A stretch of 35,621 bases of DNA from Candidatus Undinarchaeales archaeon (GTDB lineage Archaea > SpSt-1190 > JASMDC01). The DNA is taken from positions 1 through 35,621 of the forward strand of contig JASMDC010000036.1 of assembly GCA_030753015.1 (NCBI GenBank). The letters run 5' to 3'. Under the pieces are notes generated by a model, which searched no databases, had not been told where the DNA came from, and saw only the letters and a list, made by a program, of their open reading frames with translations. Shown here in pieces: positions 5,078 to 30,426 of this stretch (the first letter of the stretch is position 1; every line of letters begins with the position of its first letter). The position numbers and the translations under genes are program-made.

Positions 5078-5431
5078 ATGGACAGAAAATTTCTCGCGGC
5101 AGTGCTGATCGTCGCAGCCCTCCTGGTCGGATGCTCCTCCCAGCCGCCCGTCCCACCCGAGGAGTGCGACGGAACGGAGGCCGAGAAGGCAGCATGCGTT
5201 GGTAAGTACGTGGCCTACACCGGTGACCTCGCCCCTTGCTGGAAGCTCTCCCCACCACATGATTTCACCTGCGCGCGTCGGGGCTATACCACGCGCAACG
5301 ATCCCAACCTGTGCGCGTCCATCCCCGCGGACAGGACGACCTGTCGCCAGGACTGCATCGTGTACTTCGGGGCCATCATGGAGGGTGGCGCGATGGGCGC
5401 ATCGGCGACCCCGGTCCACGTACGTCCGTGA
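5078..5431 (+). CDS. Small Cys-containing lipoprotein
   Basis: The 117-residue product starts with a lipoprotein signal: MDRKF, a hydrophobic core, then the lipobox LLVGC with the lipidated Cys about 20 residues in. The mature part has seven Cys, two of them in CRQDC, suggesting disulfides outside the cell. I do not recognise a family. The ATG at 5078 is chosen because GGTGAG at 5065-5070 gives a Shine-Dalgarno 7 nt upstream; a GTG at 5066 is also in frame but overlaps that site. It follows the AIM24-family gene closely and precedes the Sec23/24-like gene, which has its own TATA-like box. Confidence 0.75.
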   Translation: MDRKFLAAVLIVAALLVGCSSQPPVPPEECDGTEAEKAACVGKYVAYTGDLAPCWKLSPPHDFTCARRGYTTRNDPNLCASIPADRTTCRQDCIVYFGAIMEGGAMGASATPVHVRP

Positions 5432-5450
5432 CGCTGCCGTCACGCAAAAC

Positions 5451-5460
5451 GATTTAATCC
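5451..5460 (+). promoter_or_regulatory. TATA-like box for the Sec23/24-like gene
   Basis: GATTTAATCC is centred about 26 nt before the ATG at 5481. This places the transcription start at the start codon. It supports 5481 over the upstream in-frame ATG at 5199, which lies inside the lipoprotein gene. Confidence 0.45.
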
Positions 5461-5480
5461 ATACTGGCAAGTTGTTGGCC

Positions 5481-7097
5481 ATGGCCCTGATGAGGACTGC
5501 GTTCTCTGCGCTGACTGCCGAGCGTTCCGAGCTGGAAGAGCGGATGCCGCTGGTCGCGAGCATCAGCTTCGAGGAGCTCTCAAAGGCACGCACCGTTGTG
5601 AGCTGCCAGCCGGTGAGGTGCTCGGGCTGTGGAGCTGTGCTCACCAATCCCCGACATGTCAAGGAGGACGAGCGACTAGGTGTGCACTGGACGTGCGAGT
5701 ACTGCTCGACCGTGAACATCATCTCCAAGGACGAAATACCACCCGGGGGCGGCGACGATATCGACTTTGTCCTCGACGAGCCACCCGACACGAAGGAGAG
5801 CCCGGGGTCCCTTCCGGAGTCCAAGAGTGTCGACACCGTAGCGGTCATCGACACGTCGGGGAGCATGTCATTCAACAAGCTCGATGCCGTGAAGCAGTCA
5901 TTGAACGAGACGCTGGCAGACCTGCGCGTCAACGCACCCACGAGCGCCTTCGCCCTCATAACCTTCGACTCCACGGTGGCCGTGCACACCCTCCCCGGAG
6001 AGGCGCCCGTCGTGCTGTCGGGCGATGTGCTCAGGAACAGCGACCAGCTGATCGCTCAGCTCGTTGAAATGATCGACCCCCGTACACTCCAGCCAGTGGG
6101 GGAGATGGGGGAGCGCTGGACCGAGCTCGTCACCTCGTTACCGGCGCGAGGGATGACCGCCCTCGGACCCGCGGTCAACTCCGCACTCTGGCTCCTCAAG
6201 ACCCGTGGTGGAGGCAGGCTCGTACTCCTCACCGACGGCATGGCCAACGTTGGCCTGGGCACGCTCACTGGACCGTCCTCGTCGGGGCGTGACTTCTACA
6301 AGCGTGCTGCCCGGTCGGCCATGGATGCGGGGATCGTCGTCGACGTGGTCGGGATGCGCGATAAGAGCGAGAGCAACGAGATGGCGCTGGACGTCATCGG
6401 TGAGCTGGCCTCATCGTCCGGCGGTGGCATCTACTACGTCTCCGCTGCCGAGGTGGAGGGGAGCTTCCGCCAGATCAGGGGCCAGGAGTTCCTGGGGCAT
6501 GACGTGTCCCTTCGCCTCGTGACTCCCCGTACCCTCGAGGTCGAGCGCATCACCGGCCCGGGGGCGAAGGCGGATGCTGCTAAGACGCGTCTGGGAGCGG
6601 TCACCGCCGACCGCGAGGTGTTCATCAGGCTCAAGCGTTCGGGCAAGCTCGAGAAGAAGAAGGTCCCGCTCCAGGCCCAGATCGAGTACCGCGACGCCCA
6701 GGGCAGGCGTCACCTGCGCGTGTCCTCCATCAACGTCGACACCATCAAGGACGCCAAGGCGTACGCCAAAGGGTACGATACTGACATCCCGACGGTCATG
6801 GCCATGCAGGAGGCGGGCGAGGAGTACTTCCGCAATCGGACGGCGTCGTCTCTCGATCGGCTGCGGGCCATGAAGAACAACCTCGCCACCGTCGCGTCGA
6901 GCGCCCCGATCGGTAAGGCCCAGGACACCGCCACCAAGAACCTCGCGTTCGTGGAGCGTGAGATCGATCGATTGAGCAAGGCTGAGTCGGAGATACGCCC
7001 TAAAGCGGCCAAGGCGAGCAAGCGAGCCGTCAAGGGCCTCTCCATGCAGCGCATGTCCGTCTCACAGAGGCATGCTGAGGACGATGACTGTGGCTGA
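5481..7097 (+). CDS. Sec23/Sec24-like protein: zinc finger, vWA trunk, beta-sandwich, helical region
   Basis: The 538-residue protein has no signal peptide. Residues 47-75 form a zinc finger, C-x2-C-x21-C-x2-C, inside CSGCGAVLTNP...W-T-C-EYC-STVN, close to the Sec23 pattern C..CRAVLNP...W.C..C...N. A vWA domain (~117-333) follows with an intact MIDAS (DTSGSMS, 125-131), a strand FALITFDSTVAVHTL resembling Sec23's LITYGNVVQLHDL, GMTALGPAVNSAL, LLTDG, and FYKRAARSAMDAGIVVDVVG. Residues ~340-420 are beta-rich (LEVERITGPGAK, QAQIEYRDAQGRRHLRVSS) like the Sec23/24 beta-sandwich, and ~425-520 are helical. No gelsolin domain is present. In eukaryotes Sec23/24 form the inner COPII coat; here the role is unknown. 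A plain vWA protein with an added zinc ribbon is the alternative. Its end overlaps the next gene by 26 nt. Confidence 0.72.
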   Translation: MALMRTAFSALTAERSELEERMPLVASISFEELSKARTVVSCQPVRCSGCGAVLTNPRHVKEDERLGVHWTCEYCSTVNIISKDEIPPGGGDDIDFVLDEPPDTKESPGSLPESKSVDTVAVIDTSGSMSFNKLDAVKQSLNETLADLRVNAPTSAFALITFDSTVAVHTLPGEAPVVLSGDVLRNSDQLIAQLVEMIDPRTLQPVGEMGERWTELVTSLPARGMTALGPAVNSALWLLKTRGGGRLVLLTDGMANVGLGTLTGPSSSGRDFYKRAARSAMDAGIVVDVVGMRDKSESNEMALDVIGELASSSGGGIYYVSAAEVEGSFRQIRGQEFLGHDVSLRLVTPRTLEVERITGPGAKADAAKTRLGAVTADREVFIRLKRSGKLEKKKVPLQAQIEYRDAQGRRHLRVSSINVDTIKDAKAYAKGYDTDIPTVMAMQEAGEEYFRNRTASSLDRLRAMKNNLATVASSAPIGKAQDTATKNLAFVEREIDRLSKAESEIRPKAAKASKRAVKGLSMQRMSVSQRHAEDDDCG

Positions 7098-12072: not shown

Positions 12073-12465
12073 TTAGCCCCACTGCTGTTGCTGCGGGTAG
12101 CCCTGCTGCTGGCCCTGTTGTTGCTGCGGGTAGCCCTGCTGCTGGCCCTGTTGTTGCTGCGGGTAGCCCTGCTGACCCTGTTGTTGGCCCCACTGCTGCT
12201 GCTGCTGCTGCTGCTGACCCCACTGCTGTGGCATCTGCGGCTGTTCGGCGCCGGTGGCGCTCGGGGCCTTTATCGTCTTCTTCTTTTTATTTTTCAGGGC
12301 GAGCATGATGTACCCGATGAGCCCGACGAACGCGAAGAGGAACATACCGGCGCATGCCACAAATATCTTTCCCTCAGGAGTAGAGGTGAGTCCCGAGAAC
12401 AGGCCCGCCTCCTCGGCGGTTGCCACTGTCATGAGTATGACGGCGACAAGATACGCCCTAAGCAT
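12073..12465 (-). CDS. Membrane protein with Gln/Gly/Tyr/Pro repeat tail
   Basis: The 130-residue protein has an N-terminal signal or anchor (LRAYLVAVILMTVATA), a second membrane segment (VACAGMFLFAFVGLIGYIMLAL) followed by a basic KNKKKK stop-transfer, and then a ~75-residue tail made almost only of Gln, Gly, Tyr and Pro. By the positive-inside rule the tail is cytoplasmic. The tail holds repeats of an 11-residue unit around GYPQQQQ; such sequences are prone to self-association, as in prion-like domains. I do not recognise a family. A strong TATA box (AAATATAAATAA on the minus strand) lies 22-33 nt before the ATG, so it is separate from the fibrillarin operon. Confidence 0.75.
   Translation of the reverse strand: MLRAYLVAVILMTVATAEEAGLFSGLTSTPEGKIFVACAGMFLFAFVGLIGYIMLALKNKKKKTIKAPSATGAEQPQMPQQWGQQQQQQQQWGQQQGQQGYPQQQQGQQQGYPQQQQGQQQGYPQQQQWG
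12088..12183 (-). repeat. Three tandem 33-nt repeats coding the Gln-rich tail
   Basis: 12088-12120 and 12121-12153 are identical 33-nt units. 12154-12183 is a third copy lacking 3 nt. Each codes one GYPQQQQ-containing unit. The identity at DNA level implies recent slippage or expansion. Confidence 0.9.
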
Positions 12466-12520: not shown

Positions 12521-13366
12521 TCAGCTCACCCGAGCGATCACCGCAGCGTGATCCTTCTCGAATGGCATAAGGTGCCTCGTTTCGGCGATGGCGAGCCCCG
12601 AGCGTTTCAGAATCCCCATCTGTTCAGCGAAGATCTTGGAGGGCTGTTGCGACACGTCTATCGACCGCGCCTTGATCATCAGCACGAGGGTCCCTTCGGG
12701 CATGAAGGCACGAACGTTCGCCACGGATATATCAGCCTGGTCAGGCTGGGCCACGTCCTGGTACACCACGTCCACAGGTCCCACCAGATCGGAATATCTC
12801 GCTGGTTTCCTGGCGTCCGCAAGGATGGGTACGATGTTGGGGCGCCGCTCTGCTAGCCGGAACAGGTCGCGCATGGAGCGCGGGGCGAACTCAACCGCGT
12901 ACACCACACCTCGAGTGACTATGTCACTGATGTGGGATATGGTAGTCCCAGATGCCGCACCGAGGTAGAGCACACGCGAGTCGCGTTTGAAGGGAAGGGA
13001 TGCGCATCCCTTAAGGATGGCCGCGGAGAACTTGGACCGGAATGGGTCCCAAACGCGCAGCTCGTCGTCACCATGCTTGATGAGCCGCTCGTCGTACACG
13101 CGCGAACCGGGGATGAGGTTCTTTGTGGCCGGACGAACACGCGTGCCCTCCCGTACCTTGAACATGTTGGGACCCAGGGGTTCGACGTTCTTGCCCGGGC
13201 TCATGGTGAGCCCCGGATGCCGATCGAACTGACGAGGTCGGTCGCGCTGTTGGCGGTATGGCCGGTCGCGTTGCGGCGGTCGACCGCCACGTCCGCGGTC
13301 ACGGCCACGGTCCCAGTTTCTGCCCCCGGAGTTGCCGAAGTTGCGTCGCGGTCTGTCGTTTCCCAT
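12521..13366 (-). CDS. flpA: Fibrillarin-like rRNA/tRNA 2'-O-methyltransferase with Arg/Gly-rich N-terminal tail
   Basis: Fibrillarin is the SAM-dependent methyltransferase of archaeal box C/D RNPs and acts with Nop5 and L7Ae. Residues ~60-281 are the family: LYLGAASGTTISHISDIV (SAM site), VYAVEFAPRSMRDL, ILADARKPARY, VYQDVAQPDQADI and LMIKARSID. Unusually, residues 1-54 form a low-complexity tail with 16 Arg and 9 Gly (SGGRNWDRGRDRGRGGR), resembling the GAR domain of eukaryotic fibrillarin, which archaeal proteins normally lack. The start is supported by a TGATG overlap with the nop5 stop and a GGGGGTGG upstream; Met55 would be the start of a tail-less form. Nop5 is directly upstream in the same operon. 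Confidence 0.95.
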   Translation of the reverse strand: MGNDRPRRNFGNSGGRNWDRGRDRGRGGRPPQRDRPYRQQRDRPRQFDRHPGLTMSPGKNVEPLGPNMFKVREGTRVRPATKNLIPGSRVYDERLIKHGDDELRVWDPFRSKFSAAILKGCASLPFKRDSRVLYLGAASGTTISHISDIVTRGVVYAVEFAPRSMRDLFRLAERRPNIVPILADARKPARYSDLVGPVDVVYQDVAQPDQADISVANVRAFMPEGTLVLMIKARSIDVSQQPSKIFAEQMGILKRSGLAIAETRHLMPFEKDHAAVIARVS

Positions 13367-14457
13367 CAGGCGCCACCCCCTTTGGCCTTGCCCTGGGCTA
13401 TGATGCGCTCGACCTTCTCATCGAGGGCCGTCTTGAGCTCCTCGCCGTGGTCCTCGTGCGAGTAGAAGTCCATCTTGGCGGCAAGTGATATCTTCGCTGC
13501 CAGCGCCCGCGCCACCTTTCCCCGAAGCTTGGGAGGAGCGTGGCCGATGGCAGGATGCTGGAATATGACACCGTGCTTGGGGGATGGGGTCCCCTTGGCC
13601 AGGTGCTTGAACAGCGCTCGCTCTGCTCCAAGGATCTGGACCGTTGACGATGGCATGCGGGCCAACCGTTCGAGGGTTCCTGAGATCGAGATTATCCGTG
13701 CGCCCAGGTTCGCTCCCGCCACGGTTCTTATGTTGGGGGCGAGCTCGGTCATAAGCACATCGATGTAATTGACGATGGCGTCACGCTGGGTGTACATCTC
13801 ACGGAGGGACGCGGCGAATCCGGACACGGCCGTGATGTCTGCATCGGCGAGCTTTATGCCAAGGGAACGGCCAGCGTACTCGACGATAGTGGGATCGCCT
13901 GAGGTCTGGGCCACGACATCCCGTTCACCGGCGAGCACCAGCGAGACGAACCGTTCGTGGTCGGTCACCTCCTGGTCGAGCTCGGGGAAGTGGATGCCGT
14001 ACCACTCCCTGATCCGCTCGGAAAGGAGGTTCAGGGTCTTGTCCAGCACGTCGAGCGCTTCGATGGCGTTCGTAGCGAGCCGGTCACGCCCGACGCCCTC
14101 GTGCATGGCGAACCGCACCAGGTCTAAGGCCACAGCATTCTTGAGGGCAATGATGTCTTCCACATCCCCGGATCGGAATAATTCGGCCTCGTTCTTGAGG
14201 ATGTACCGGGTAGCAGGGTTCAGGCGCTCTTTCTGATAGCCCTCTTTCTTGGTGTCGAACACCACGTCCTCTCCCTTCTTGGGCTTGACCTTCTTGAGAA
14301 GGGCCTTCTCCTCCTCCACTATCTCGCCTGAAGCGATGCTGTGGAGACGGTCGGCCACTTCTGCGGGCTCACGCGGGAAGGGTACATTAGCACGGAGCTC
14401 TCCCCCTTCGTCCACTGCGTACACTCCGAGGATGTTCCTGCTGATGTAGATGACCAT
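13366..14457 (-). CDS. nop5: Nop5 (Nop56/58-like) box C/D RNP core protein
   Basis: Nop5 bridges L7Ae, the box C/D guide RNA and fibrillarin. The 363-residue protein has a divergent N-terminal domain that binds fibrillarin, a coiled-coil middle, and the conserved NOP domain: TVAGANLGARIISISGTLERLARMP, then GAERALFKHLAKGTPSPKHGVIFQHP. The Lys/Ser-rich C-terminal tail of many homologues is absent. The frame opens to 14553, but the ATG at 14457 (MVIYISRNILGVYAVDE) is where family sequence begins, and the upstream 32 residues look untranslated. The stop overlaps the fibrillarin start by one base, so the two subunits are co-translated. Confidence 0.95.
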   Translation of the reverse strand: MVIYISRNILGVYAVDEGGELRANVPFPREPAEVADRLHSIASGEIVEEEKALLKKVKPKKGEDVVFDTKKEGYQKERLNPATRYILKNEAELFRSGDVEDIIALKNAVALDLVRFAMHEGVGRDRLATNAIEALDVLDKTLNLLSERIREWYGIHFPELDQEVTDHERFVSLVLAGERDVVAQTSGDPTIVEYAGRSLGIKLADADITAVSGFAASLREMYTQRDAIVNYIDVLMTELAPNIRTVAGANLGARIISISGTLERLARMPSSTVQILGAERALFKHLAKGTPSPKHGVIFQHPAIGHAPPKLRGKVARALAAKISLAAKMDFYSHEDHGEELKTALDEKVERIIAQGKAKGGGA

Positions 14458-14560
14458 ATGCTCGCCGTCCGTTGGTCCGCACCATACCTTGAAAAATGTT
14501 TGGAAAAGGAGCGGCGGCCCATTTCTGGTGTTAAAGTGAGTGGGGACCGGCACGCGACAG

Positions 14561-17286: not shown

Positions 17287-18798
17287 TCACTCCCAGTGAC
17301 GACGCTGTCGCCGGAACAGAGGTTCGTCCTGGACGTACCCCTTGCCGGCAGCGATGGCGATCTCTGCTCTTGCGAGCTCGGCACCAAGGTACGCGACGTG
17401 GTCAAGAGCCCGCACGAGGCCCCGTGCAAGCACTTCCGACCAAACCTGTCGTGCCGATACCCCATCCACAAGGCATACATCCACGCCATCACGCTGGACC
17501 AAGCACTGGATGCGGTCATCGGTCGTGACCGAGATGGAGAGCGCCACTCCCCCCTCAAGATCCGGAGACCGGTCGGATTGTGGTTCCGGTGTAAGGTCCG
17601 AACCGACAGGATCACGTACACGTACCTTGTCCTTGAACCCGAGGAGCGAGATCCCCAGGTCCTTCGGGTAGGTCCCTAGGCTGCCAGCGACGACCATCAT
17701 GTCCCGGGCCGCCCTGCACTCACGAACCGTGCCCCGCGTCTTGTGCGAGGCCTCGACCGTGAGGATGACGGCGACGTCGAGCTCGTGAGCTATGGCGCAG
17801 AGCATGGCGTTCGCGCCAGGGGAGTCCGCGTCCATCAGTTCGACCGCGTTCCCCACGCCCATGAGCACAGGGAGGTCCGATGTCCCCGAGATATGGGCGT
17901 AGGCTGCGAGCGAGCGCGCAAGACCAAAACCTGGCGGATCGAGCACGGGATCGAGCACGATGCGCGTGAAACCGCGAGCCCTGGCCCGGTCGGCCATGGA
18001 CAGTACTCCTTGGACCTTGTCCCCGGGGCCTGGAACGACGACACACACAGCATCGGTGGGCCTGACCTTATCAAGATTATCAGGATGGAGCGATAGCACC
18101 AAATGGACACCTGCGTCCACAGCGGCATTGATGATGTCGGGATTGAGCGTGTCCACGCTCACGGGGGCCCCCAGGGGGAGCACCGCCTCCACGATCTCGG
18201 CAGCCCGAATCGCGGTCGCGTCCACCGTGAATCCCAGGTCGATTATCTCGGCCCCCTCGTCCAGGAAGCGCTGCGCCTTTGCGACCACCTCGTCGGTCGG
18301 GCGAGCATCGCAGTCGTCGATCTCTGCGAGCACCCGTACCGGGAGCCCTCGCCCTATCCGCAGTCCTCGGACCTCGTGACTTGGCCCCTTGATATCGACC
18401 GCCTCGGCGTCCTTAAGGAGCCTCCCGGCACGTTCCGCTCTCGAGCGGGACAGGAGCGCATCTGCCGGTTCGTCGGGTGACAGGGGAAGATCGTCGAGTT
18501 CCGCGAGCGTCGAGGGAAGGTCGAACGCGTATCTCGGACCCTTGACCACACGCACGCCTGCACTACTGGCCAGGGCAGCAACGTCCCCCCGTATCAATCC
18601 AGGGAGGATTACAATGTCCCATTCTCCGCCATCGAGGAGCGGTGCGACCTCGTCCGGTATCAGGAGCGCTGCCACGTCCCTCGGAGCGATCCGCACTTCG
18701 ACATCCGGCCCATCCCCGGGCATACCTGCGACCGCGGCACGGACAGCAGCCTCAGCACGCCGGGCGGTCACGAGGAGCACTCGCTTCCTTCGAGCCAC
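17287..18798 (-). CDS. Dihydropteroate synthase-like protein of the methanopterin pathway (TIGR00284 type)
   Basis: This archaeal family is thought to join the pterin diphosphate to the ribofuranosylbenzene phosphate made by MptG during tetrahydromethanopterin synthesis. The 503 residues have three parts: an N-terminal ~130-residue domain (KRVLLVTARRAE, WDIVILPGLIRGD), a pterin-binding TIM barrel (~145-385) with EGAEIIDLG, VSVDTLNPDIINAAVDAG, IVLDPVLDPPG, LMGVGNAVEL and LTVEASHKTRG, and a C-terminal ~100-residue domain. It starts with GTG at 18798 directly after the TAA of the DUF447 gene, so translation is coupled. The pairing with DUF447 and the divergent mptG support the pathway assignment. 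Confidence 0.88.
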   Translation of the reverse strand: MARRKRVLLVTARRAEAAVRAAVAGMPGDGPDVEVRIAPRDVAALLIPDEVAPLLDGGEWDIVILPGLIRGDVAALASSAGVRVVKGPRYAFDLPSTLAELDDLPLSPDEPADALLSRSRAERAGRLLKDAEAVDIKGPSHEVRGLRIGRGLPVRVLAEIDDCDARPTDEVVAKAQRFLDEGAEIIDLGFTVDATAIRAAEIVEAVLPLGAPVSVDTLNPDIINAAVDAGVHLVLSLHPDNLDKVRPTDAVCVVVPGPGDKVQGVLSMADRARARGFTRIVLDPVLDPPGFGLARSLAAYAHISGTSDLPVLMGVGNAVELMDADSPGANAMLCAIAHELDVAVILTVEASHKTRGTVRECRAARDMMVVAGSLGTYPKDLGISLLGFKDKVRVRDPVGSDLTPEPQSDRSPDLEGGVALSISVTTDDRIQCLVQRDGVDVCLVDGVSARQVWSEVLARGLVRALDHVAYLGAELARAEIAIAAGKGYVQDEPLFRRQRRHWE

Positions 18799-19464
18799 TT
18801 ACGTCACATCCCCCGCGAGCGCCCTGATGCGGCTGGCAAGGTCCTCACCATCTGGACGCGTCCGCTGCACGATGTCGAGTGCGATCTCGACACGCTCAAG
18901 CCATTCTCGGCGTTGCTCAGGTGTCGATACGCGGGCCCTCGTGGCATGGACCAGCGCCTCCATGAGCTGGCCATCACCTCGGGACAGGGGGCGTGGCGAT
19001 ATCACAGAGATGACGGCACGGTCCGGTCTGAGGGTGACGGATATGACGTTGGTCTCGCCGATACCGTCGCTCACCATCTTCGCCTCCTGTCGCGCCACCT
19101 TCACGGTGATCGAGGCGAAGCACCCCGCGATCCGCGGAACAGGACCATCCCCCTCTTCGCTAAGCGACCCTTCGAGCGCCGCAAGGAGCACCAGGGGATC
19201 ATGAGTGAGGTGTACGGCCCCATTCCCCTCCTCGAGCAGCGCATCGCGCATCCGTCCGGGGAAAAGACGAACGTGCACGGAGCTGCCTCGCCGGACGCAA
19301 CCAACGGGAACGGCGTGTCCCCTGCAGGATATCAGGCACTCGTGGACAACGCCCTCATCTAAATGGGAGAGGGCACGGTCCAGTTCGATATCAGTATCAT
19401 CCGTTATAGTCCACCCCCACCCGCACGAGGGAGTTGCAGTAAGCACAGGTACACACACCATCAT
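18799..19464 (-). CDS. DUF447 family protein, flavin-reductase-like split barrel
   Basis: The core (~36-220) follows the DUF447 plan: VVHECLISCRGHAVPVGCVRRG, VHVRLFPG, GNGAVHLTHDPLVLLAAL and a helical C-terminus. DUF447 proteins resemble FMN-binding split barrels and often neighbour methanopterin genes; no reaction is established. The start is uncertain. The only in-frame start codons lie inside the preceding zinc-ribbon gene, giving an overlap of 68 nt and a Cys/Pro-rich first ~20 residues unlike the family. A sequencing or true frameshift near 19400, where the upstream gene ends in ATGA, would explain this. The stop abuts the GTG of the dihydropteroate synthase-like gene. Confidence 0.75.
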   Translation of the reverse strand: MMVCVPVLTATPSCGWGWTITDDTDIELDRALSHLDEGVVHECLISCRGHAVPVGCVRRGSSVHVRLFPGRMRDALLEEGNGAVHLTHDPLVLLAALEGSLSEEGDGPVPRIAGCFASITVKVARQEAKMVSDGIGETNVISVTLRPDRAVISVISPRPLSRGDGQLMEALVHATRARVSTPEQRREWLERVEIALDIVQRTRPDGEDLASRIRALAGDVT

Positions 19465-19651
19465 CGGTGAGGTCGTCCTGTTCGAGCGGAGCGCCGCACT
19501 GCGGGCAATGCACGGTCTTCACCTGCATGTGCCGATCGCCGATGATGGCCGGCTTGCCGGAGGGTTTGTTGGCGATACGCGGGACCACTAACCTCTTCTT
19601 GGACAGTTTGCGTATCCGTTTGAGCATCGCCTCCCCGTCGTCCGTTTTCAC
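19397..19651 (-). CDS. Small zinc-ribbon protein
   Basis: The 84-residue protein has a basic N-terminal half (MLKRIRKLSKKRLVVPR) and a C-terminal zinc ribbon with HCPQCGAPLE and, ~20 residues later, CTCAYC. Such ribbons bind one zinc and usually mediate contacts with nucleic acid or protein. The GTG start at 19651 is supported by GGGAGG about 8 nt upstream; an ATG at 19627 is the alternative. It is the first gene of a likely operon with DUF447 and the dihydropteroate synthase-like gene, driven from the GTTATAAC element at 19687-19694. Confidence 0.75.
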   Translation of the reverse strand: MKTDDGEAMLKRIRKLSKKRLVVPRIANKPSGKPAIIGDRHMQVKTVHCPQCGAPLEQDDLTDDGVCTCAYCNSLVRVGVDYNG

Positions 19652-19686
19652 CCGTTCAGCCTCCCGTTCACGGGGGGTGCGGAACA

Positions 19687-19694
19687 GTTATAAC
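19687..19694. promoter_or_regulatory. Palindromic TATA element between the divergent methanopterin genes
   Basis: GTTATAAC is its own reverse complement. On the plus strand it ends 24 nt before the mptG GTG at 19719. On the minus strand it lies ~36 nt before the zinc-ribbon GTG at 19651. It can serve both directions. Confidence 0.5.
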
Positions 19695-19718
19695 TCTTAC
19701 CAGCCCGCTCCCCCTCCT

Positions 19719-20711
19719 GTGGAGGAGGAGCCACTCCAATCTGTTGAGGTATCATCGCCATCACGGCTGCACCTCTCCCTCCTGGACCTCAATGGCGACT
19801 TGGGAAGGATCGACGGCGGTCTCGGAGTGGCGCTCCGAGAACCACGCTTGCACCTTATAGCGGAGCACGCGCCCGGTCTTTCGGTGACCGGTCCCGGGAA
19901 GGACCTGGTTCGTTCCTATGCCAAACGGTTCTGTGCTCAGCATGGGATCGACGGGGCTAAGCTCACCATCAAGGCCTCCATCCCCCGCCATGTCGGATTC
20001 GGTTCAGGTACTCAGTCCGCACTGGTCGCGGGGAGTGCCATTGCTCGCCTCAACGGGCTTGAACGGACACCACAGCAGGTGGCGTGTGACCTCGGACGGG
20101 GTGGTACGTCCGGCATCGGTGTGGCCACGTTCGACAGAGGGGGGTTCATCGTTGATGGTGGTCACTCTTTCGGTCCGGGACAGGAGAAGGAGAGGTTCCT
20201 CCCATCCAGCGCCTCTCGTGCAGATCCACCCCCCGTCCTCATGCGCATCGCCTTTCCATCAAGTTGGCGCTTCGTCGTTGTGGTCCCGCACACGGCGCCC
20301 GGCATCCACGGCGATGCCGAGCGGGCCGCGTTCGCTGAACGATGTCCCGTCCCACGCGACGCTGTCGAGTCCCTCTGCCGGCTTGTTCTCATGAAGCTCT
20401 TGCCCGCGGTGGTCGAGCGAGACATCTCGGGGTTCGGCGAAGCGGTCACGGCCCTCAGACTCGAGGGATTCGGCCGCGTGGGAGCGGACCTTTCTCCTCC
20501 TCGTTCGATAGAACTGGTCGAGCATCTCTTGCACGAAGGTGCTGCCGGCGCAGGGATCTCCTCTTTCGGTCCGGTGGTGTACGGGATAGTCGAGGGGGCA
20601 CGAGGAGCACGCCAGCTCCAAGACTCAGTGATGCCCCACCTCAGAGAAGGGGGCAAGGTGTTCATCACCCAGGCGGACAACCGGGGCGCCCGCATCCGTC
20701 CGATCTACTAA
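19719..20711 (+). CDS. mptG: Beta-ribofuranosylaminobenzene/phenol 5'-phosphate synthase
   Basis: MptG condenses phosphoribosyl diphosphate with 4-hydroxybenzoate (or 4-aminobenzoate), with loss of CO2, in the first step specific to the methanopterin side chain. The 330-residue protein matches the family: SSPSRLHLSLLDLNGDLGRIDGGLGVAL at the N-terminus, the GHMP-kinase-like loop PRHVGFGSGTQSAL, GRGGTSGIGVATFDRGGFIVDGGHSF, and GISSFGPVVYGIVE near the end. The frame is open far upstream, but the GTG at 19719 gives the family length and lies 24 nt after the TATA element, so a leaderless GTG start is likely. It is divergent from the other methanopterin genes. Confidence 0.93.
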   Translation: MEEEPLQSVEVSSPSRLHLSLLDLNGDLGRIDGGLGVALREPRLHLIAEHAPGLSVTGPGKDLVRSYAKRFCAQHGIDGAKLTIKASIPRHVGFGSGTQSALVAGSAIARLNGLERTPQQVACDLGRGGTSGIGVATFDRGGFIVDGGHSFGPGQEKERFLPSSASRADPPPVLMRIAFPSSWRFVVVVPHTAPGIHGDAERAAFAERCPVPRDAVESLCRLVLMKLLPAVVERDISGFGEAVTALRLEGFGRVGADLSPPRSIELVEHLLHEGAAGAGISSFGPVVYGIVEGARGARQLQDSVMPHLREGGKVFITQADNRGARIRPIY

Positions 20712-21549: not shown

Positions 21550-21810
21550 TTACTGAAGGCCCTCTAGGCTGTACTCCTTCTCCCATGGGATCCATCCTGT
21601 GGTCTTGATGGGAGGAAGGTCCTTGTTGTGGCTGATCATTGCCGTCTCAAGGAGGGCCTCGAACATGTATGGGATGGGGATGCGCCTGCCGTTGGAGTCA
21701 TAGGCCTTGAAGTTGAGCCTCTGCTTCGTTTTATCGGCCAGCATGGGCAGCAATATCACCGATCCGCTCTTTTCCATAGGCTTCGGCGCCTTCATGGGCG
21801 GGAACATCAT
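21550..21810 (-). CDS. Hypothetical protein, 86 residues
   Basis: The sequence reads like a real soluble protein (SVILLPMLADKTKQRLNFKAYDSNGRRIPIPYMFEALLETAM). Its codon use (GCC, ATC, AAG, GAG, CTC) fits the genome much better than the overlapping plus-strand frame. I recognise no family. ATG codons at 21810 and 21807 are possible starts; there is no good Shine-Dalgarno, and the sequence upstream is the Pro/Ala repeat array rather than a promoter. It is probably the first gene of the minus-strand coiled-coil cluster. Confidence 0.62.
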   Translation of the reverse strand: MMFPPMKAPKPMEKSGSVILLPMLADKTKQRLNFKAYDSNGRRIPIPYMFEALLETAMISHNKDLPPIKTTGWIPWEKEYSLEGLQ

Positions 21811-22866
21811 CGTCAACTCGGGTCTGGTGCGCAGCCGAAAGTAGCCCCAAAACCGGCAGCAGCCCCTGATGCGCATCCCAAAGTAGCACCCGCCGTAGCA
21901 AAACCGGCACCGAAGCCCGCACCCAAGCCAGGGGGCGTTGACGACATCCTCGGGAACCTCGGAGGGCCTGCGCCGCCAAAAGCAGCCCCGAAGCCCGCGC
22001 CGACCCCAGGGGGTATCGACGACCTTCTAGCGGACATAGGTGGGCCTGCTCAGCCGAAGGCCTCCCCGAAACCGGCAGCAGCCGTAAAACCAGCGCCGAA
22101 GCCTGCACCGGCTCCCGGAGGTGTCGATGACCTCCTAGCGGACATAGGTGGGCCTGCTCAACCGAAGGCCGCTCCGAAGCCTGCACCGGCCCCCAGAGGT
22201 GTCGATGACCTCCTTGCGGACATAGGCGGGCCCGCTCAGCCGAAAGCAGCCCCAAAACCGGCAGCAGCTGCGGCACCGCCACCCAAGGCGGCTCCCGCGA
22301 AGCCAGGCAATCTGACGTCGGCCGTGGGAGATATACTCGGGACGACGACCCAGAGACCGCCCACCGAGCCCAAGGCTGCACCTAAGCCTGCAGGTGTCGA
22401 TGATCTCCTCGGCGAGGCAGTGACGCCAGCGGTGGCTGCAGCTCCACCGAAAGCGGCTCCCGCAAAGCCCGGCAGCCTGTCATCGGCCGTGGGAGATATA
22501 CTCGGGACGACGACCCAGAGACCGCCCACCGAACCAACAGCCGCTCCCAAGCCCACAGGTGTCGACGACCTTCTCGGCGAGCCAGCGAAACCAGCGGCGG
22601 CTACAGCTCCACCGGAAGCGGCTCCCGCAAAGCCCGGGGGTCTCGTGTCCGCTGTGAAGAACATGCTTGGCGGAGGCTCTAAAGAACCACCAGCCGAGCC
22701 CGCAGCCGCTCCAAAACCTGCAGGCGTCGATGATATCCTTGGAACCGATACCCCGAAACCCGATCCGAACGCACCAAAACCGGCAGGTATCGATGACGTC
22801 CTCGGCGGCGACGAGGCCGGCGACCTCGATGGCCTCGACGATCTCCTTGACGACCTTGACGTCTAG
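21628..22866 (+). CDS. Pro/Ala-rich multivalent repeat protein with VDDLLG motifs; start unresolved
   Basis: From ~21820 the frame codes a low-complexity protein of ~350 residues. Flexible Lys/Pro/Ala linkers separate short acidic-leucine motifs: VDDILGNL, IDDLLADI, VDDLLADI (twice), VDDLLGEA, VDDLLGEP, VDDILGTD, IDDVLGGD and a final LDDLLDDLDV. In the second half a longer unit (SAVGDILGTTTQRPPTEP...) recurs three times. It is probably an unstructured scaffold whose motifs dock partner domains. No signal or membrane segment is present. The only in-frame start is GTG 21628 (GGAGGAAGG precedes it), but 21628-21810 is antisense to a better gene and codes an unconvincing His/Arg-rich stretch. Confidence 0.6.
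   Translation: MADHCRLKEGLEHVWDGDAPAVGVIGLEVEPLLRFIGQHGQQYHRSALFHRLRRLHGREHHRQLGSGAQPKVAPKPAAAPDAHPKVAPAVAKPAPKPAPKPGGVDDILGNLGGPAPPKAAPKPAPTPGGIDDLLADIGGPAQPKASPKPAAAVKPAPKPAPAPGGVDDLLADIGGPAQPKAAPKPAPAPRGVDDLLADIGGPAQPKAAPKPAAAAAPPPKAAPAKPGNLTSAVGDILGTTTQRPPTEPKAAPKPAGVDDLLGEAVTPAVAAAPPKAAPAKPGSLSSAVGDILGTTTQRPPTEPTAAPKPTGVDDLLGEPAKPAAATAPPEAAPAKPGGLVSAVKNMLGGGSKEPPAEPAAAPKPAGVDDILGTDTPKPDPNAPKPAGIDDVLGGDEAGDLDGLDDLLDDLDV
21820..22860 (+). repeat. Degenerate tandem repeats coding the Pro/Ala linker and VDDLLG motif
   Basis: Two nested repeat types are seen. A ~78-nt unit (GGVDDLLADIGGPAQPKAAPKP) occurs about four times in 21930-22260. A ~170-nt unit with SAVGDILGTTTQRPP occurs three times in 22310-22760. 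Several copies are nearly identical at DNA level. Confidence 0.85.
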
Positions 22867-23828: not shown

Positions 23829-26066
23829 ATGAACAGGCGTCGACGTGGATTCCTTTCGGTGGTCGCCTTCCTCATGATGGTGTACACCCTCCTCGATATC
23901 CTCAACCTCTACTATGACACCCTCCGTGTGAGCCAGCAGCAGCTGGACATCGGGATGGCGCTCGACCAGATGGTCTACATCGAGTCCAATATCGCCAACA
24001 GTTACTGGGGCGTCGTGGACCAGAGCTTCGGGCTCGCGTACGGCGCCGACATGCGTGAGGGCACCAGACGGTACCCGGTAGCGGACACGCTCTTCACGAG
24101 AGAACGGTTCTTCCTACCATGCGAGATCGATGTGGACGGTCTCCTCCAGAACGCTACACGGCGGAACCTCCTGAAATGGGCCCGGGCGACGGCCGTGCTC
24201 CTGCGGTTCGAAGGTAAGGAGGTGAACATCACCGTGGACGGTGCGGACGGGGACCTGACCGACCTCGCCGACGCATTAACCTTGGAGATGGACAGGTCGG
24301 ACTGTGGAATGAACGGCTGCTGCGACATCACGTTCCCCTTCACTAACGACACTCGCGAGCCGCCCGTGTCCGACATCGATGCCCGGTACGGTGGCCATGA
24401 CCTGTGCACCGACGAGTGGCCGGGATGCCCTGCGGTGCCAACAGGCCTTCCCAGTGACTTCTGCATGGCGATCAGCCCGTGCGAGGTGTACGAGGACGCC
24501 CAGACACTGGCCCAGTACTACTCCGGGATCGGTCACTCTGCGGGGAGCCTAGCCATGTCCAACCTCTTCGGCTTCACCGCGGCCTGTCCGGACTGCATCG
24601 ACCACGCCACCGGCCAGACGCTCTCGCGGGACATCCGGTTCCCCAAGTGCCCCGAGTCGGCATCACCCGCATGCCGTGCCGTGGAGGGGTTCGCACAGAA
24701 CGTTGGCCGGGGCATGGGGCTGGCGTTCCTCTCGAGCTGCCCTTACGGGAAATGGCACGACATCACTGTGGGCGTGCCCGTGCGCAGCTACTGTTCCCGC
24801 GACTCCAGGGATGTCGACTGGCCCGGCAGTGATGAGGACAAGCGGCTGCTGGGACCATCGGTCTTCGAGGATGGCGTGGTGGACGACGAAAGAGTTGAGT
24901 CCATGGTTTGTTCGGGATATGACATCTTCGACGCCTGCGGTGGCGCCGGACTGCTCGACACACCGCGACAGACCTACGGCGGCCAACACTGCTGCCTGTG
25001 CAACGACACCTCGCCCGAGTTCACGACCACTCGCATCTGCCTTTCCTGCAACAATACGGTAGACCTGACCATGATGGACGAGCTCGATGACCAGCTCCAC
25101 CTCAATGGCACTTCATGGGACAGGGAGAGGGTGTCCTTGTTCGAGGATCCCGAGGTGGACGATACGGGCATCGTCGTGGAACGCACCTGTCGCATGACGA
25201 CCAATACCTGCAACCACTTCACCATCCGCACTTCGCTCCCGGTACGGGTCGACGTCTCCCTGGCCGATGACCTCTACCGCATCTCGTCGTCCTTCAAGAT
25301 GTCCGGCAGGCGGCGGATCGGCCGACGCTGCTCCCTCCGCCGCATCGACTGGGCGGCCATGGAAGCGGCCTGCCGCGTCCTTTCCGCGGTCCAGGAGGTG
25401 GCGCCGCCCACGATGTACCAGGTGTTCGTGGGCCTGGACGGGATCTGGACGGATTACCTCGTGAGCTCGGGCGTGCCCAACGTCGTCCTCGGCTTCAACT
25501 ACACCGATGGTTCGACCGACGTCAATGCCAGCGCTCTCGGTCCACCAGCCCTCATCGGCGCGCTCATCGAGGCGATTCTGTCCAACCGCGACGCCTTCAG
25601 CGTCGATGGCAACGACTACCATTTCATCGATGCCGCGGGATCGGCTCCTGCCGGTGTCCAGGCCCGGTGCCAGCCAGGCAACACATGTCGCTACCGCTCG
25701 CTCGAATCCGGCCTCGGAGGGGGGATCGCTGCCATGGACCCCGGTCTGCTCGCTCGGGAGGACAGTGATGACCTCCGGGCGCTCCTCGTGCGTAACGAGA
25801 CGGACAGCGATGGCGAGCAGTTCTGGGTACGCAACGATCCTGCCATCGGGTACGACGTCCTCCTCGAACCCGATTACGTGGACAACATCCTATCGCTCAC
25901 ATTCGACTCCCCGTCCCTGACCGGGCTCGGCGGAGTGGGGGCACCCGACATCCTCACGCGAGGTAAGGACTGCGAATGGACCGCAGAGAAGGAGGAGTGC
26001 ATGCGCCACATGCTCCGGATCTTCTATGGCCCGTTCTGCAGGTGGGGGGTGGACCCCGTTGGATAG
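23829..26066 (+). CDS. Large Cys-rich membrane-anchored surface protein
   Basis: The 745-residue protein starts with MNRRRRGF and a membrane segment (LSVVAFLMMVYTLLDILNLY), followed by a ~720-residue extracellular part rich in Asp, Cys and aromatic residues. Cys clusters recur (NGCCDITF, CPDCID, HCCLCNDT, ICLSCNN), which suggests a disulfide-stabilised structure. I recognise no domain. The basic head plus N-terminal anchor is the same design as the gene 3 nt upstream, and the following gene overlaps by 41 nt, so three proteins are likely made together and may form one complex on the cell surface. Confidence 0.78.
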   Translation: MNRRRRGFLSVVAFLMMVYTLLDILNLYYDTLRVSQQQLDIGMALDQMVYIESNIANSYWGVVDQSFGLAYGADMREGTRRYPVADTLFTRERFFLPCEIDVDGLLQNATRRNLLKWARATAVLLRFEGKEVNITVDGADGDLTDLADALTLEMDRSDCGMNGCCDITFPFTNDTREPPVSDIDARYGGHDLCTDEWPGCPAVPTGLPSDFCMAISPCEVYEDAQTLAQYYSGIGHSAGSLAMSNLFGFTAACPDCIDHATGQTLSRDIRFPKCPESASPACRAVEGFAQNVGRGMGLAFLSSCPYGKWHDITVGVPVRSYCSRDSRDVDWPGSDEDKRLLGPSVFEDGVVDDERVESMVCSGYDIFDACGGAGLLDTPRQTYGGQHCCLCNDTSPEFTTTRICLSCNNTVDLTMMDELDDQLHLNGTSWDRERVSLFEDPEVDDTGIVVERTCRMTTNTCNHFTIRTSLPVRVDVSLADDLYRISSSFKMSGRRRIGRRCSLRRIDWAAMEAACRVLSAVQEVAPPTMYQVFVGLDGIWTDYLVSSGVPNVVLGFNYTDGSTDVNASALGPPALIGALIEAILSNRDAFSVDGNDYHFIDAAGSAPAGVQARCQPGNTCRYRSLESGLGGGIAAMDPGLLAREDSDDLRALLVRNETDSDGEQFWVRNDPAIGYDVLLEPDYVDNILSLTFDSPSLTGLGGVGAPDILTRGKDCEWTAEKEECMRHMLRIFYGPFCRWGVDPVG

Positions 26067-29000
26067 ACGGGTGATGCTAGTTCTAGTGCTAGTAATGGCC
26101 GTCGGAACAGCGATCTGTCCTATCGAGGGCGAACGCCGATGCTCGGGCAACTCCGTGGAGGAGTGCCAGTGCGGCATGGAGTGCGATTGGCAGGTCATCC
26201 AGACCTGTGCCTCGGGCCTCGTCTGCAGTTTCGATCGCACCGAGGTCTCCCACGAGGAGTGCGTGGACGCACCCGCACCTCATTGCGAGGAGGTGGTCGA
26301 CGCAGTCTGTACAGGCGAGCGCTGTGACGGCCTCGACCTGACGGTCAACGAGTGCCAGGGCGGCGCATGCGTCGACACCGTGCTCCAGACCTGCACTGCA
26401 GCGGGTGTGGAGAGATGCGTCGACTCAAACCGGCTGCGCACGTACGCGGGATGCGAGGACTCGGGCGACGGGACGTTGGGCTGCCTCTACTCCGGTGATG
26501 AGTTCTGCAACACCAACTCGGAGTGCTCGGGCGACCAGATCCTCATCGGGACGTGCAACGTCGACCGTTGCGAGAACACGGTGCCCGACGAGCTCTGCGA
26601 TGACCGGTGCACATCCCAACGGGACGGCGAGAGCCGGTCCTGCGACGACTCGAGCGGCGATGCCTTGTGCGTCGTGGACTCCACCGTCCGGTGCGGGGAC
26701 ACCTGCGCGGACCCGCGCAACCTCCAGCTCAAGAGCTGCGATGACACGTCGGGCGCGCCGGTGTGCGTTGTGGATACGACAGACCGCTGCGACGACCGGT
26801 GCGCCATCGATGGCGGTTACGACAAAGAGGTCCGGGAAGGATTCTGTGACGACTCGGGCCTGGACGCAGTGTGCAACGACCGGTTCCAGGAGCGGTGCGA
26901 CGACTCCTGTGACGATGACCGGCACTCCAGGTTCTGGATGTGCCAGGTTGACGGCGGCACGGGCCTCGCATCATGCATCCTCGATACATCCCGTGGCGAC
27001 GGATCGACCCCCGGAGTCGAGCATTGCGACGACCGGTGCGCCACCAGCAAGCGTATCCACGAAGGGTACTGCAGCCCCCAGACGCTCCCGTTCCAGCCCG
27101 ACGCCCAGTGCGACGACCGGTTCGATCCGGCATACAATCCGGACCCGGGCGGCCACTCGGACCTTGGTTACTGTATCGATGAGTGCTTCGATCCCCAGGC
27201 GGACGTCACCGGGTGGAGCCCTGCAGCTGATGGGCACCAGACTACTGAGAGTTTCGACCGCCAGATCCATAAGTACTACTGCCAGCTCGAGGCCGACGGC
27301 CTCGCGTCGTGCGCGGACGAGCGTGACACCGACTGCTTCGAGCAGAACTTTGCGGCACACTTCTACCACTCGCCGACCGGCTGGTCGTTCTCGTTCGCGG
27401 GCAACGACGGCCGTGTCATCCCCAGCGAAGGCATCTACTTCATGCGCTGCGAGACCGATCTGGAGGAACAACGTGACAAGCAGTGCACCTACGCCGACGT
27501 CATCCACAAGTGCGACGACTGGTGCTCCACGGACGGTACCGAGGACGGTCGGGTGCGCGACGGCGCCACCCATGAGAACTGGCTGCGTTACGCGTACAGT
27601 CCCGTGACCCCGCCGGTGCCCGCCGATCTGGACGACGTGAAGGAGGAGTTCTGCCAGCCCACGAACGTGGAATGCCAGCGGTTCGACTACTGCCTCTCGT
27701 CCGATGACCTCCAGGAGTACAGCTGCACCACCAGCGGCGGCGACCTTCCTGAAGAGTCCAAGTGTCGTCGGGATACGATCGACAGCCGGACCCCACTCGC
27801 GGATTGGGACCAGACGACCGAGGACGTGGTGACCGTTGATTACTGTCACGGGGGCGAGTGGCGCCAGTGCACGGGGCCCGGACGTCAGCGAGGTGCCGAC
27901 CCATGCTGCTCCGGTGAGATCGACGCGATCCTCAACATCACCGAGATGCGGGACGAGACTAACAGCATCGACAACTGCCGGTCGGACCCTGACGAGGTGG
28001 GGAGCAGGGCCTGTGACGACGTGCGCACCGACGTCGGTGTCACCGAGGAAAGGACGGTCACGACCAGGGACGGTCGGGATACGTTCGACGTGGACGTGGA
28101 TCCCGCCCTCGAGGTCGTGGCAACGCTCAGCGGCCACTCGGGCCGTGTGTGGGACATCCTGGCCGACGACGACCACATCCTTACCGCTTCGAACGACGAG
28201 AACGTCACGGTATGGGAGCGGGGCGGCACCTGGGCCAACCTCGCCAATCTAACGGGACACACCTCCCCGGTCATCAGACTTGCTAAGGACGCCACATCGA
28301 TTTACACGGCATCATCGGACAGCACAGTGCGTGTGTGGGAGAACGGAGGCAGCTTCACGCACAACACCACGCTCTCCCACTCGGGCGTGAACGACGTATC
28401 GGTCAACGGTGACCGCATCGCAGTGGCATGCGTCAACGGCACGGTCCAGATATGGGAGAACGGGGACGACTTCACTGCGCTCCAGACGCTCGGAGGGCAC
28501 GCGGGCGCGGTCACTGCTGTTCACATCGATCCTGACTACATCATCTCCGGTGGACAGGACTTCGCTGTTATCGTGCGGGACAGGGTCACAGGTGGTCCTT
28601 TGGCCACTCTGGTGGACCATCTCGGCATCGTGATGGAGGTATACTCCGATGGCGACTACCTCTACTCCGCCTCCCTGGACGGCACGGTCATAGTTCGTCA
28701 GCGCACACCCCCTTTCACAATCCTCACTATCCTCGAGGCCGCTACCGCGATAACCGACGTCGATGCTAGGGCGGACTACGTGTTCGCCGTCGTGGGCAAC
28801 GGTACGATCATGGTGTGGGACCGGGGCGGCACCTGGGACCCGGTCAACCTCGTGCGTAACTTGGCGAGCGGATGGGCCGTCTCATCGGATGTCGACTATA
28901 TCTACGCAACCCCGGGGAACACGGGCTCGGTCCGCATCCCCGATCTCGTCGTTGAGACCAACACGACCTTCGAGGTGAACCTCACCTCGGGCGGGAGCAT

Positions 29001-30426
29001 GCTCTCGGCCCGGTTCGAGCTGACGGGGAGCGGGGCACCGCTCCCAAGCGACATCACTCTGGACGTGGGGAGCGACGATACCGATGACTGGTCCAGAGCA
29101 GGTGTGCTATCAGGCCCGGTCACCACCGGCGACCTCTCCGCGGCATTCCAGGCCGAGCTGGACGCATGCGTCCTGCCAGAATACGAGAACTGCACGATCA
29201 ACGTTACGCTGTCGTTCCAGAACGGCGGGACCGTTGCCGTAACCGACATCGACCTGCGTGTGATGGTCTTCCGACAACCGCCCGGTGTGGAGATCCCGGG
29301 TTATGTGGCCGGACGGCTCGATAGCGATGTCACAGCGGGAGGCCGCACCCGAAATCAGGTGTGCGGGCCCTTCCCCGAGTACGACGACGCCACGGAATGC
29401 TGCATGACCTCCGCTCAGGTCCTCCAGTGCACGACGGCGATCAATACGTTCAACCTCAACGCCATCGAGGACGTTCGACCCGCTACTTGGTGCGACGATG
29501 CATGTGGGAACGTTGGCGACGTGTTCGAGCAGATGCATGACTCGTTCAAGGGCACTTTCGAATGCATGCTGAACGGCTACTGCGTCGACGTGCGTCGGGG
29601 GATGTGCTGCACCGATGCCAACTGCCACACATGTGGCCTGGACACCGACGACGCCTCCTGCGCCGACCTGTTCGATGACAAGACCTGTGGCCCGGGCGGC
29701 GACGAGTACTGCTCGCAGAAATGCTCGACCTGCTTCATCAACGCGACCGACCTTCTCATGGGGACGGTGCTCACCGAGCTGAACAACATCACCAGTCCCT
29801 TCGTGGTCGGCCACATGCGCAGGCTGGCGGACAACGCCATGTGCGACACAAACACCCGCTTCTGTCGAAGGAAGATTCTCGGTGAGCAACCCTGCACGCC
29901 GGACGGGGAGCAGCTGGACGCTATGGGCCGCAACTGGCGCAGCGACAACTGCATGTCCGGTGTGTGCGACGCTGGATGGGGGCGCTGCGACAACGAGTCC
30001 ATGCGCGGTGGCTGGTACCTTCGGGGATTGGATGCCGTACCCGCGGTCGAGCCGGAGCCAACGGACCTGTGCGATGACCTCCAGGGGAGCGGCATCATAG
30101 AAGCGATGCGCGACATGTGGTGCGGTGACCAGAACAGAGTAAACACGCTCCTCGATATCCATTTCGTGGCCAACTACACCAACGTCCCCTGCCTCCGGTG
30201 CCCCGATCTCGTGCCGCCACCCGGCGCCACCATGCCGCCCGACTACTACGGTGGAGGGGGCGATGTCGAAGAGACGGTCATCACCCAGGGTGAAACGCCC
30301 ATCCCTGAGCCAGCACCAGAAGGGCTCGGTAGCTTCAACCTCTCGCCCAACAATGCCGGGATCGATGCACTCTTCCCTGCCCTGGTGGCCGTGTTCCTCA
30401 TAGGCCTCCACCGTCTGCGCGTGTGA
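26026..30426 (+). CDS. Giant Cys-rich surface protein with embedded WD40 propeller and C-terminal anchor
   Basis: This 1,466-residue protein has a signal segment (VMLVLVLVMAVGTAI), a long Cys-rich region (~35-680) built from repeats around CDDRC/CDDSG/LCVVD, a seven-bladed WD40 propeller (~693-955; SGHSGRVWDILADDD, TASNDENVTVWE), a beta-rich region, a second Cys-rich part (~1110-1400), and a C-terminal membrane segment (ALFPALVAVFLIGL) with a basic end. It should stand outside the cell anchored at its C-terminus. WD40 in an exported protein is unusual. The ATG at 26026 overlaps the upstream gene by 41 nt; a TTG at 26059 with GGGGGTGG 6 nt upstream fits the signal peptide better. Confidence 0.85.
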   Translation: MARSAGGGWTPLDRRVMLVLVLVMAVGTAICPIEGERRCSGNSVEECQCGMECDWQVIQTCASGLVCSFDRTEVSHEECVDAPAPHCEEVVDAVCTGERCDGLDLTVNECQGGACVDTVLQTCTAAGVERCVDSNRLRTYAGCEDSGDGTLGCLYSGDEFCNTNSECSGDQILIGTCNVDRCENTVPDELCDDRCTSQRDGESRSCDDSSGDALCVVDSTVRCGDTCADPRNLQLKSCDDTSGAPVCVVDTTDRCDDRCAIDGGYDKEVREGFCDDSGLDAVCNDRFQERCDDSCDDDRHSRFWMCQVDGGTGLASCILDTSRGDGSTPGVEHCDDRCATSKRIHEGYCSPQTLPFQPDAQCDDRFDPAYNPDPGGHSDLGYCIDECFDPQADVTGWSPAADGHQTTESFDRQIHKYYCQLEADGLASCADERDTDCFEQNFAAHFYHSPTGWSFSFAGNDGRVIPSEGIYFMRCETDLEEQRDKQCTYADVIHKCDDWCSTDGTEDGRVRDGATHENWLRYAYSPVTPPVPADLDDVKEEFCQPTNVECQRFDYCLSSDDLQEYSCTTSGGDLPEESKCRRDTIDSRTPLADWDQTTEDVVTVDYCHGGEWRQCTGPGRQRGADPCCSGEIDAILNITEMRDETNSIDNCRSDPDEVGSRACDDVRTDVGVTEERTVTTRDGRDTFDVDVDPALEVVATLSGHSGRVWDILADDDHILTASNDENVTVWERGGTWANLANLTGHTSPVIRLAKDATSIYTASSDSTVRVWENGGSFTHNTTLSHSGVNDVSVNGDRIAVACVNGTVQIWENGDDFTALQTLGGHAGAVTAVHIDPDYIISGGQDFAVIVRDRVTGGPLATLVDHLGIVMEVYSDGDYLYSASLDGTVIVRQRTPPFTILTILEAATAITDVDARADYVFAVVGNGTIMVWDRGGTWDPVNLVRNLASGWAVSSDVDYIYATPGNTGSVRIPDLVVETNTTFEVNLTSGGSMLSARFELTGSGAPLPSDITLDVGSDDTDDWSRAGVLSGPVTTGDLSAAFQAELDACVLPEYENCTINVTLSFQNGGTVAVTDIDLRVMVFRQPPGVEIPGYVAGRLDSDVTAGGRTRNQVCGPFPEYDDATECCMTSAQVLQCTTAINTFNLNAIEDVRPATWCDDACGNVGDVFEQMHDSFKGTFECMLNGYCVDVRRGMCCTDANCHTCGLDTDDASCADLFDDKTCGPGGDEYCSQKCSTCFINATDLLMGTVLTELNNITSPFVVGHMRRLADNAMCDTNTRFCRRKILGEQPCTPDGEQLDAMGRNWRSDNCMSGVCDAGWGRCDNESMRGGWYLRGLDAVPAVEPEPTDLCDDLQGSGIIEAMRDMWCGDQNRVNTLLDIHFVANYTNVPCLRCPDLVPPPGATMPPDYYGGGGDVEETVITQGETPIPEPAPEGLGSFNLSPNNAGIDALFPALVAVFLIGLHRLRV

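Follow-up and report, generated by a model that had tools for sequence, protein, structure and literature searches.

Fibrillarin and nop5 in an archaeal genome

The window, by which we mean the whole 35,621-nucleotide stretch of DNA that was analysed, carries on its minus strand a fibrillarin gene (fib) with nop5 directly upstream. The features of this locus, in the order in which they are transcribed, are as follows.

13366..14553, minus strand: nop5 (aNop56/58), matching PF01798 at E 4e-60 and PF21572 at residues 35–128
13373..13380, minus strand: Shine-Dalgarno-like site GGGGGTGG, 6 nt upstream of Met1, duplex energy −12.1 kcal/mol
13364..13368, minus strand: TGATG, in which the nop5 stop overlaps the fib start, read from the sequence
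12521..13366, minus strand: coding sequence of a fibrillarin-like 2′-O-methyltransferase of 281 amino acids (P0001), identified by PF01269, PRK04266.1-2 and 1fbn
13205..13366, minus strand: Arg/Gly/Asp/Pro/Gln-rich tail MGNDRPRRNFGNSGGRNWDRGRDRGRGGRPPQRDRPYRQQRDRPRQFDRHPGLT, codons 1–54, defined by composition and AlphaFold2 disorder
12521..13204, minus strand: ordinary archaeal fibrillarin core from Met55, an alternative start, to the stop, defined by pLDDT and invariant columns

The original prediction placed the fibrillarin frame correctly at 12521–13366 and left its strand, which is minus, unstated. Apart from the tail, the encoded protein (Fib) has the canonical features of an archaeal box C/D fibrillarin. 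Residues 67–280 match PF01269 with an E value of 1.4e-84 (283 bits against a Pfam cut-off of 27), the cut-off of the NCBIfam equivalog PRK04266.1-2 is exceeded, and the nearest solved structure is the fibrillarin of M. jannaschii (1fbn, E 2.6e-67). An alignment of 39 archaeal fibrillarins has 32 invariant columns, all of which are kept in the window Fib, K112, D204, K232 and H273 among them, and an AlphaFold2 model built on the archaeal fibrillarin alignment gives the core a pLDDT above 90 from residue ~61. The family domain over its curated cut-off, the methyltransferase positions and the adjacent nop5 place the protein among archaeal fibrillarins. It is the single clear fibrillarin copy in the genome, where two further weak matches fall under the family cut-off; nop5, which probably starts at the in-frame ATG at codon 33, is the sole Nop-domain gene found there.

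In an RpoB′ tree that took in six of nine class-mates, the genome (RpoB′ locus L183) groups with them at 100/100, next to Aenigmatarchaeota and among DPANN archaea. Its size of 3.85 Mb, against 0.6–1.1 Mb for the class-mates, is very large for DPANN, and the genome is either that of a giant DPANN archaeon or a bin that is in part chimeric. This bin, which has an estimated contamination of 5.01%, is probably where the contig belongs; the GC content of the window (0.609) lies inside the range of the sampled contigs (0.546–0.657). In a fibrillarin tree, the window Fib falls outside its class and weakly near Methanosarcinales (89/87), and an AU test does not reject grouping with the class (p-AU 0.134). 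We make no claim that fib came from horizontal transfer or contamination, since this test allows the class grouping.

Other genes of the window have features of their own. A plus-strand gene at 5199–7097, which probably starts at an internal ATG, encodes a protein with a Sec23/Sec24 trunk over the cut-off (PF04811, E 4.6e-12), a vWA domain, a Sec23 beta-sandwich match below threshold and what looks like a Sec23-like zinc finger (CSGCGAVLTNP...WTCEYCSTVN); judged from these domains it may be a COPII-coat-like protein of a DPANN-related archaeon, and a phmmer search of solved structures yielded no relative at E 0.01. The gene directly downstream of fib, at 12073–12465 on the minus strand, encodes a small protein that apparently contains a membrane segment and ends in a Q/G/Y/P-rich (prion-like) tail based on a tandem repeat of 33 bp. 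Adjacent genes for a pterin-binding/DUF6513 protein, a DUF447 protein and a divergent GHMP kinase (17287–20711) look like a tetrahydromethanopterin biosynthesis cluster, which is unexpected for DPANN. A plus-strand gene at 26026–30426 encodes a 1466-aa protein whose N-terminal half is Cys-rich and which has WD40 repeats at residues ~697–936.

An arginine-rich tail predicted to be disordered

Residue counts confirm 16 Arg and 9 Gly, with RGR and GGR motifs, in residues 1–54 of Fib, as first proposed from the sequence; the segment also holds 6 Asp, 6 Pro, 4 Asn, 4 Gln and 4 aromatic residues, and carries a net charge of +10. The term R/D/P/Q/G-rich basic tail fits it better than GAR domain. AlphaFold2 assigns a pLDDT below 50 to residues 7–28 and 33–53 and predicts secondary structure nowhere before residue 54, and the tail is thus modelled as intrinsically disordered.

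The composition of the tail was compared with a 274-kb sample of genome stretches, in which some small contigs were read as N and which provided 208 predicted genes and 65,437 windows of 54 amino acids. When every gene is represented by its best window, the Fib tail has the top Arg count and ties for the highest Arg+Gly. Random reading frames supply a weaker null: among 74k stop-free 162-nt frames out of 200k sampled for this GC-rich genome, 1.4% encode at least 16 Arg and 0.76% reach an Arg+Gly count of at least 25. Composition alone is therefore no proof of translation, and the context of the start codon adds the rest.

Rarity of the tail among archaeal fibrillarins

Whole-genome searches for fibrillarin covered 61 genomes across archaea together with 227 genomes of the Asgard phylum, 145 of the Aenigmatarchaeota phylum, 151 of a Thermoproteota-type phylum and 148 of a Halobacteriota-type phylum, the results for these four phyla being those among the matches listed, with the lowest-scoring ones outside. 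Most fibrillarin open frames among the matches listed are too short for such a tail. The long frames were mostly read, leaving out about seven from Thermoproteota and several from Halobacteriota. Across 180 distinct nop5–fib operons, in which N-termini were read against the position of nop5, no other RG-type Fib tail was found, and none of the Asgard fibrillarins read (among the matches listed, 227 genomes) has such a tail. These readings bear out the expectation that the fold is where archaeal fibrillarins normally begin, and by the N-termini compared the window tail is very unusual among them.

Long frames upstream of fib in other archaea were considered as tails and rejected. Most prove to be either Nop5 tails read out of frame or GC-rich open frames; in Thermoproteota, the Nop5 C-terminal tail read in a different frame accounts for most of them. 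Once nop5 is in view, the true fib start lies near the nop5 stop.

Among the nearest relatives compared, which are related at class level, G004 and G002 share a short basic Fib N-terminus and a tailless Nop5; the former begins MKRNFKRKGRFRGKHKK... and has an ATGA overlap with nop5, the latter begins MAKKHHGDDKRRSGPGGPRKFGHGG..., and both tails are shorter than that of the window. In contrast, the N-termini read in the seven f2 genomes of this class lack the tail, as do the Asgard fibrillarins that were read.

Two further arrangements were observed between nop5 and fib. At loci L113–L117 of f2 relatives the gaps measure 211–360 nt, and those of L113 and L116 contain a short open frame whose product would have hydrophobic, membrane-like segments. 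At the Thermoproteota-type loci L282–L286, L288 and L289 there is no ATG, GTG or TTG from the nop5 stop to the fib domain, and fib thus apparently starts inside the nop5 tail, in another frame within a basic and often RG-rich segment, often with a TTG at −14, so that the coding regions of the two genes would overlap.

Basic tails on archaeal Nop5

The window Nop5 ends ...EKVERIIAQGKAKGGGA (KAKGGGA) without a basic C-terminal tail, and the next gene, fib, opens with one. Basic C-terminal tails are present on Nop5 in 83 of the 180 distinct operons, 37 tails having at least 25% Lys and 49 at least 20% Arg, and RG or RGG is repeated at the Nop5 C terminus in 21 of the 180. Some operons had been picked for long frames; with most of those removed, 67 of 145 Nop5 proteins are basic-tailed. 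Examples are G541 (GGRRDDRGGRRDDRGG...), G505 (FRGGGGGFRGREGGGFRG) and G051 (DDRGRGDKRDDRGRGDKRDDRRGG), and the tails of G533 (GRGSRGFDRGRDRNRGNDRSRGGDRF) and G012 (RPRDSFRSRDDRPRDNFRPRDD) are close in style to that of the window Fib. The cationic R/K/G/D-rich composition of such tails (compare G533, G012 and G541) is found in the window tail, but on Fib rather than at the Nop5 C terminus, and at +0.19 its net charge per residue is lower than that of the median basic Nop5 tail (+0.39).

A ‘C-terminal charged tail’ has been mentioned for A. fulgidus Nop5 (PMC4117494), and a 2024 paper states that archaeal snoRNPs lack both lysine-rich tails and GAR tails (PMC11528048). Almost half of the Nop5 proteins read have K/R-rich ends, some with many RGG repeats. 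The survey conflicts with the published statement on lysine-rich tails and qualifies that on GAR tails, because several Nop5 tails are RG/RGG-rich in composition. Basic tails on archaeal Nop5 are a more general result than the tail on Fib.

A statistical trade-off between the two tails was also considered. It was promising on 88 operons (54 Nop5-tailed, 3 Fib-tailed, none with both) but non-significant on 180 (both tails in 1, Nop5 alone in 82, Fib alone in 4 and neither in 93; Fisher p = 0.37, from operons that are mutually non-independent). We now treat the trade-off as a hypothesis only, and the complementarity of the tails as suggestive only. Because many archaea have neither tail (the 93 operons above), the RNP can do without such an arm. 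Gar1 (PF04410) was undetected in this genome or class.

It is unlikely that the Fib tail is a neutral low-complexity expansion without function. The genome does carry other low-complexity proteins, such as the products of neighbouring genes with Q/G/Y/P- and P/A/K-rich repeats (12073–12465 and 21628–22866), and the f2 relatives manage without the tail. However, repetition at the DNA level is scant, consisting only of 2-copy repeats of 9 and 12 bp, and the tail, which is richer in Arg than any other segment of the genome sample, belongs to an RNA-modifying enzyme of the box C/D RNP, a particle on which basic tails recur.

The tail is not a eukaryotic-type GAR domain

The GAR domain of eukaryotic fibrillarin (FBL) has more than 10 RG/RGG repeats, in which each Arg is followed by Gly (PMC9957100). 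By these criteria the Fib tail is not a eukaryotic-type GAR domain, because Gly follows 3 of its 16 Arg, including one RGG, while di-RGG is absent and tri-RG occurs once (RGRDRGRG); its RG and RGG repeats together fall short of the count in FBL. The description ‘GAR-like’ consequently fails in the eukaryotic sense, although the tri-RG motif and the predicted disorder are features that the tail does have. A PRMT_C model, with which arginine methyltransferases were sought, finds zero matches in this genome, and likewise zero in every control genome.

GAR domains were reported absent from archaeal fibrillarins in 148 archaeal species (PMC7608942), a statement against which the window sets one archaeal fibrillarin with an Arg-rich tail. 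The view in the original prediction that the GAR tail is eukaryotic has to be amended, since archaeal box C/D RNPs commonly have cationic, sometimes RGG/RGD-rich, tails on Nop5. Since no Asgard fibrillarin read has the tail, its resemblance to the eukaryotic domain is most likely convergent, as the Asp-, Gln- and Pro-rich composition had led the original prediction to allow, and descent from or towards eukaryotic GAR is unsupported.

The tail might still do the work of a GAR domain and drive condensation of box C/D RNPs, given its N-terminal place on the same enzyme, its predicted disorder and its tri-RG motif. We consider this quite unlikely, as the scarcity of Arg–Gly pairs, the lone RGG, the 4 aromatics in 54 residues and the 6 Asp all count against it, and this organism is not known to have a nucleolus-like body.

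Translation start of fib

Fib is very probably translated from Met1, judging by the signals around the start codon. The TGATG overlap with nop5, which the original prediction took as support for this start, is confirmed, and start–stop overlaps of −1 or −4 are common among other archaeal nop5–fib pairs. The overlap is joined by the Shine-Dalgarno-like site, whose duplex energy is reached by 0.6% of window ATGs; the corresponding value at Met55, −5.0 kcal/mol, is reached by 32% of random sites. Together with the extreme Arg richness of the segment, these two signals favour Met1. Codon-frame scores give the tail frame no advantage (−0.10 per codon, versus +0.15 for the frame of nop5), and were rejected as evidence on the tail because they did not discriminate that frame.

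If translation instead began at Met55, a spacer of 162 nt would follow nop5, its open frame and Arg richness being by-products of GC-rich DNA. Such a start would give Fib a normal archaeal N-terminus (MSPGKNVEPLGPNMFKV) and a normal length, and it accords with the codon scores and with the frequency of stop-free frames of this length, of which some are as Arg-rich as the tail. It is nevertheless distinctly improbable, in that the TGATG sits exactly at the nop5 stop and in frame with fib, the Shine-Dalgarno-like site is much stronger at Met1, and the gap from the nop5 stop to the fib domain is longer in just 9 of 115 operon rows, several of which are f2 class-mates with another short frame between. 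That nop5 and fib are one fused gene, with the tail as linker and a miscounted base in the G5 run just upstream at 13376–13380 as the cause of the split, deserves almost no weight: an extra G there lets nop5 read through the tail into fib (...GKAKGGWRLMGNDRPRRN...), but separate overlapping genes are common in archaea, no fusion was noticed among the nop5–fib operons read, and the TGATG and Shine-Dalgarno-like site would become accidents.

A candidate RNA-binding arm

We somewhat favour the reading that the tail is a lineage-specific, disordered, net-positive RNA-binding arm of ~54 residues, translated from Met1, of the box C/D RNP. Translation would be coupled to nop5 termination at the TGATG, and the arm would bind guide RNA and/or pre-rRNA non-specifically by electrostatic attraction, helping to keep the RNP on its substrate. 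A basic tail modelled as disordered plausibly binds RNA, and if the tail is translated a role as such an arm is fairly likely; condensate formation would be possible, not required. The arm would be carried by Fib and not by Nop5. As the same role can be assigned to the basic Nop5 tails, one of which is absent here, the arm may have moved between subunits, and it is conceivable, if only tentatively so, that the Fib tail replaces a Nop5 tail.

This RNA-binding arm is favoured by the start context, the extreme composition, the disorder next to a confidently modelled core, the rarity of the tail on Fib and its kinship with Nop5 tails. Against it stand the non-significant trade-off, the many archaea with neither tail, the tailless f2 relatives, the codon scores and the lower charge density.

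A wider proposal, which we regard as doubtful, is that archaeal box C/D RNPs often have a cationic disordered arm whose host subunit depends on lineage (mostly the Nop5 C terminus, here the Fib N terminus), and that the eukaryotic GAR and KKE/D tails would elaborate this archaeal theme. If true, GAR on fibrillarin and KKE/D on Nop56/58 would not be a eukaryotic invention. If the tails turn out to bind RNA or to promote assembly, box C/D RNPs would have had cationic arms before the nucleolus arose, and the role of these arms would be testable in cultured archaea with tailed Nop5.

Comparison with known systems

With other archaeal fibrillarins (aFib, PF01269/PRK04266), the window Fib shares the fold, the 32 invariant positions and the operon with nop5, at ~46–56% identity to 38 aligned archaeal sequences; it differs by its 54-residue, Arg-rich N-terminal extension, predicted to be disordered. 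Like the GAR domain of eukaryotic fibrillarin/Nop1, the extension is N-terminal on the same enzyme, net positive, predicted to be disordered and endowed with RG motifs, whereas its three RG, single RGG and wealth of Asp, Pro and Gln set it apart. With the basic tails of archaeal Nop5 and the KKE/D tails of eukaryotic Nop56/58, it has in common that it is a cationic and presumably disordered tail in the same RNP, and in some lineages the archaeal Nop5 tails are of the same R/D/G type. Those tails, however, are C-terminal on Nop5 or Nop56/58, whereas in the window the tail is N-terminal on fibrillarin and accompanies a tailless Nop5.
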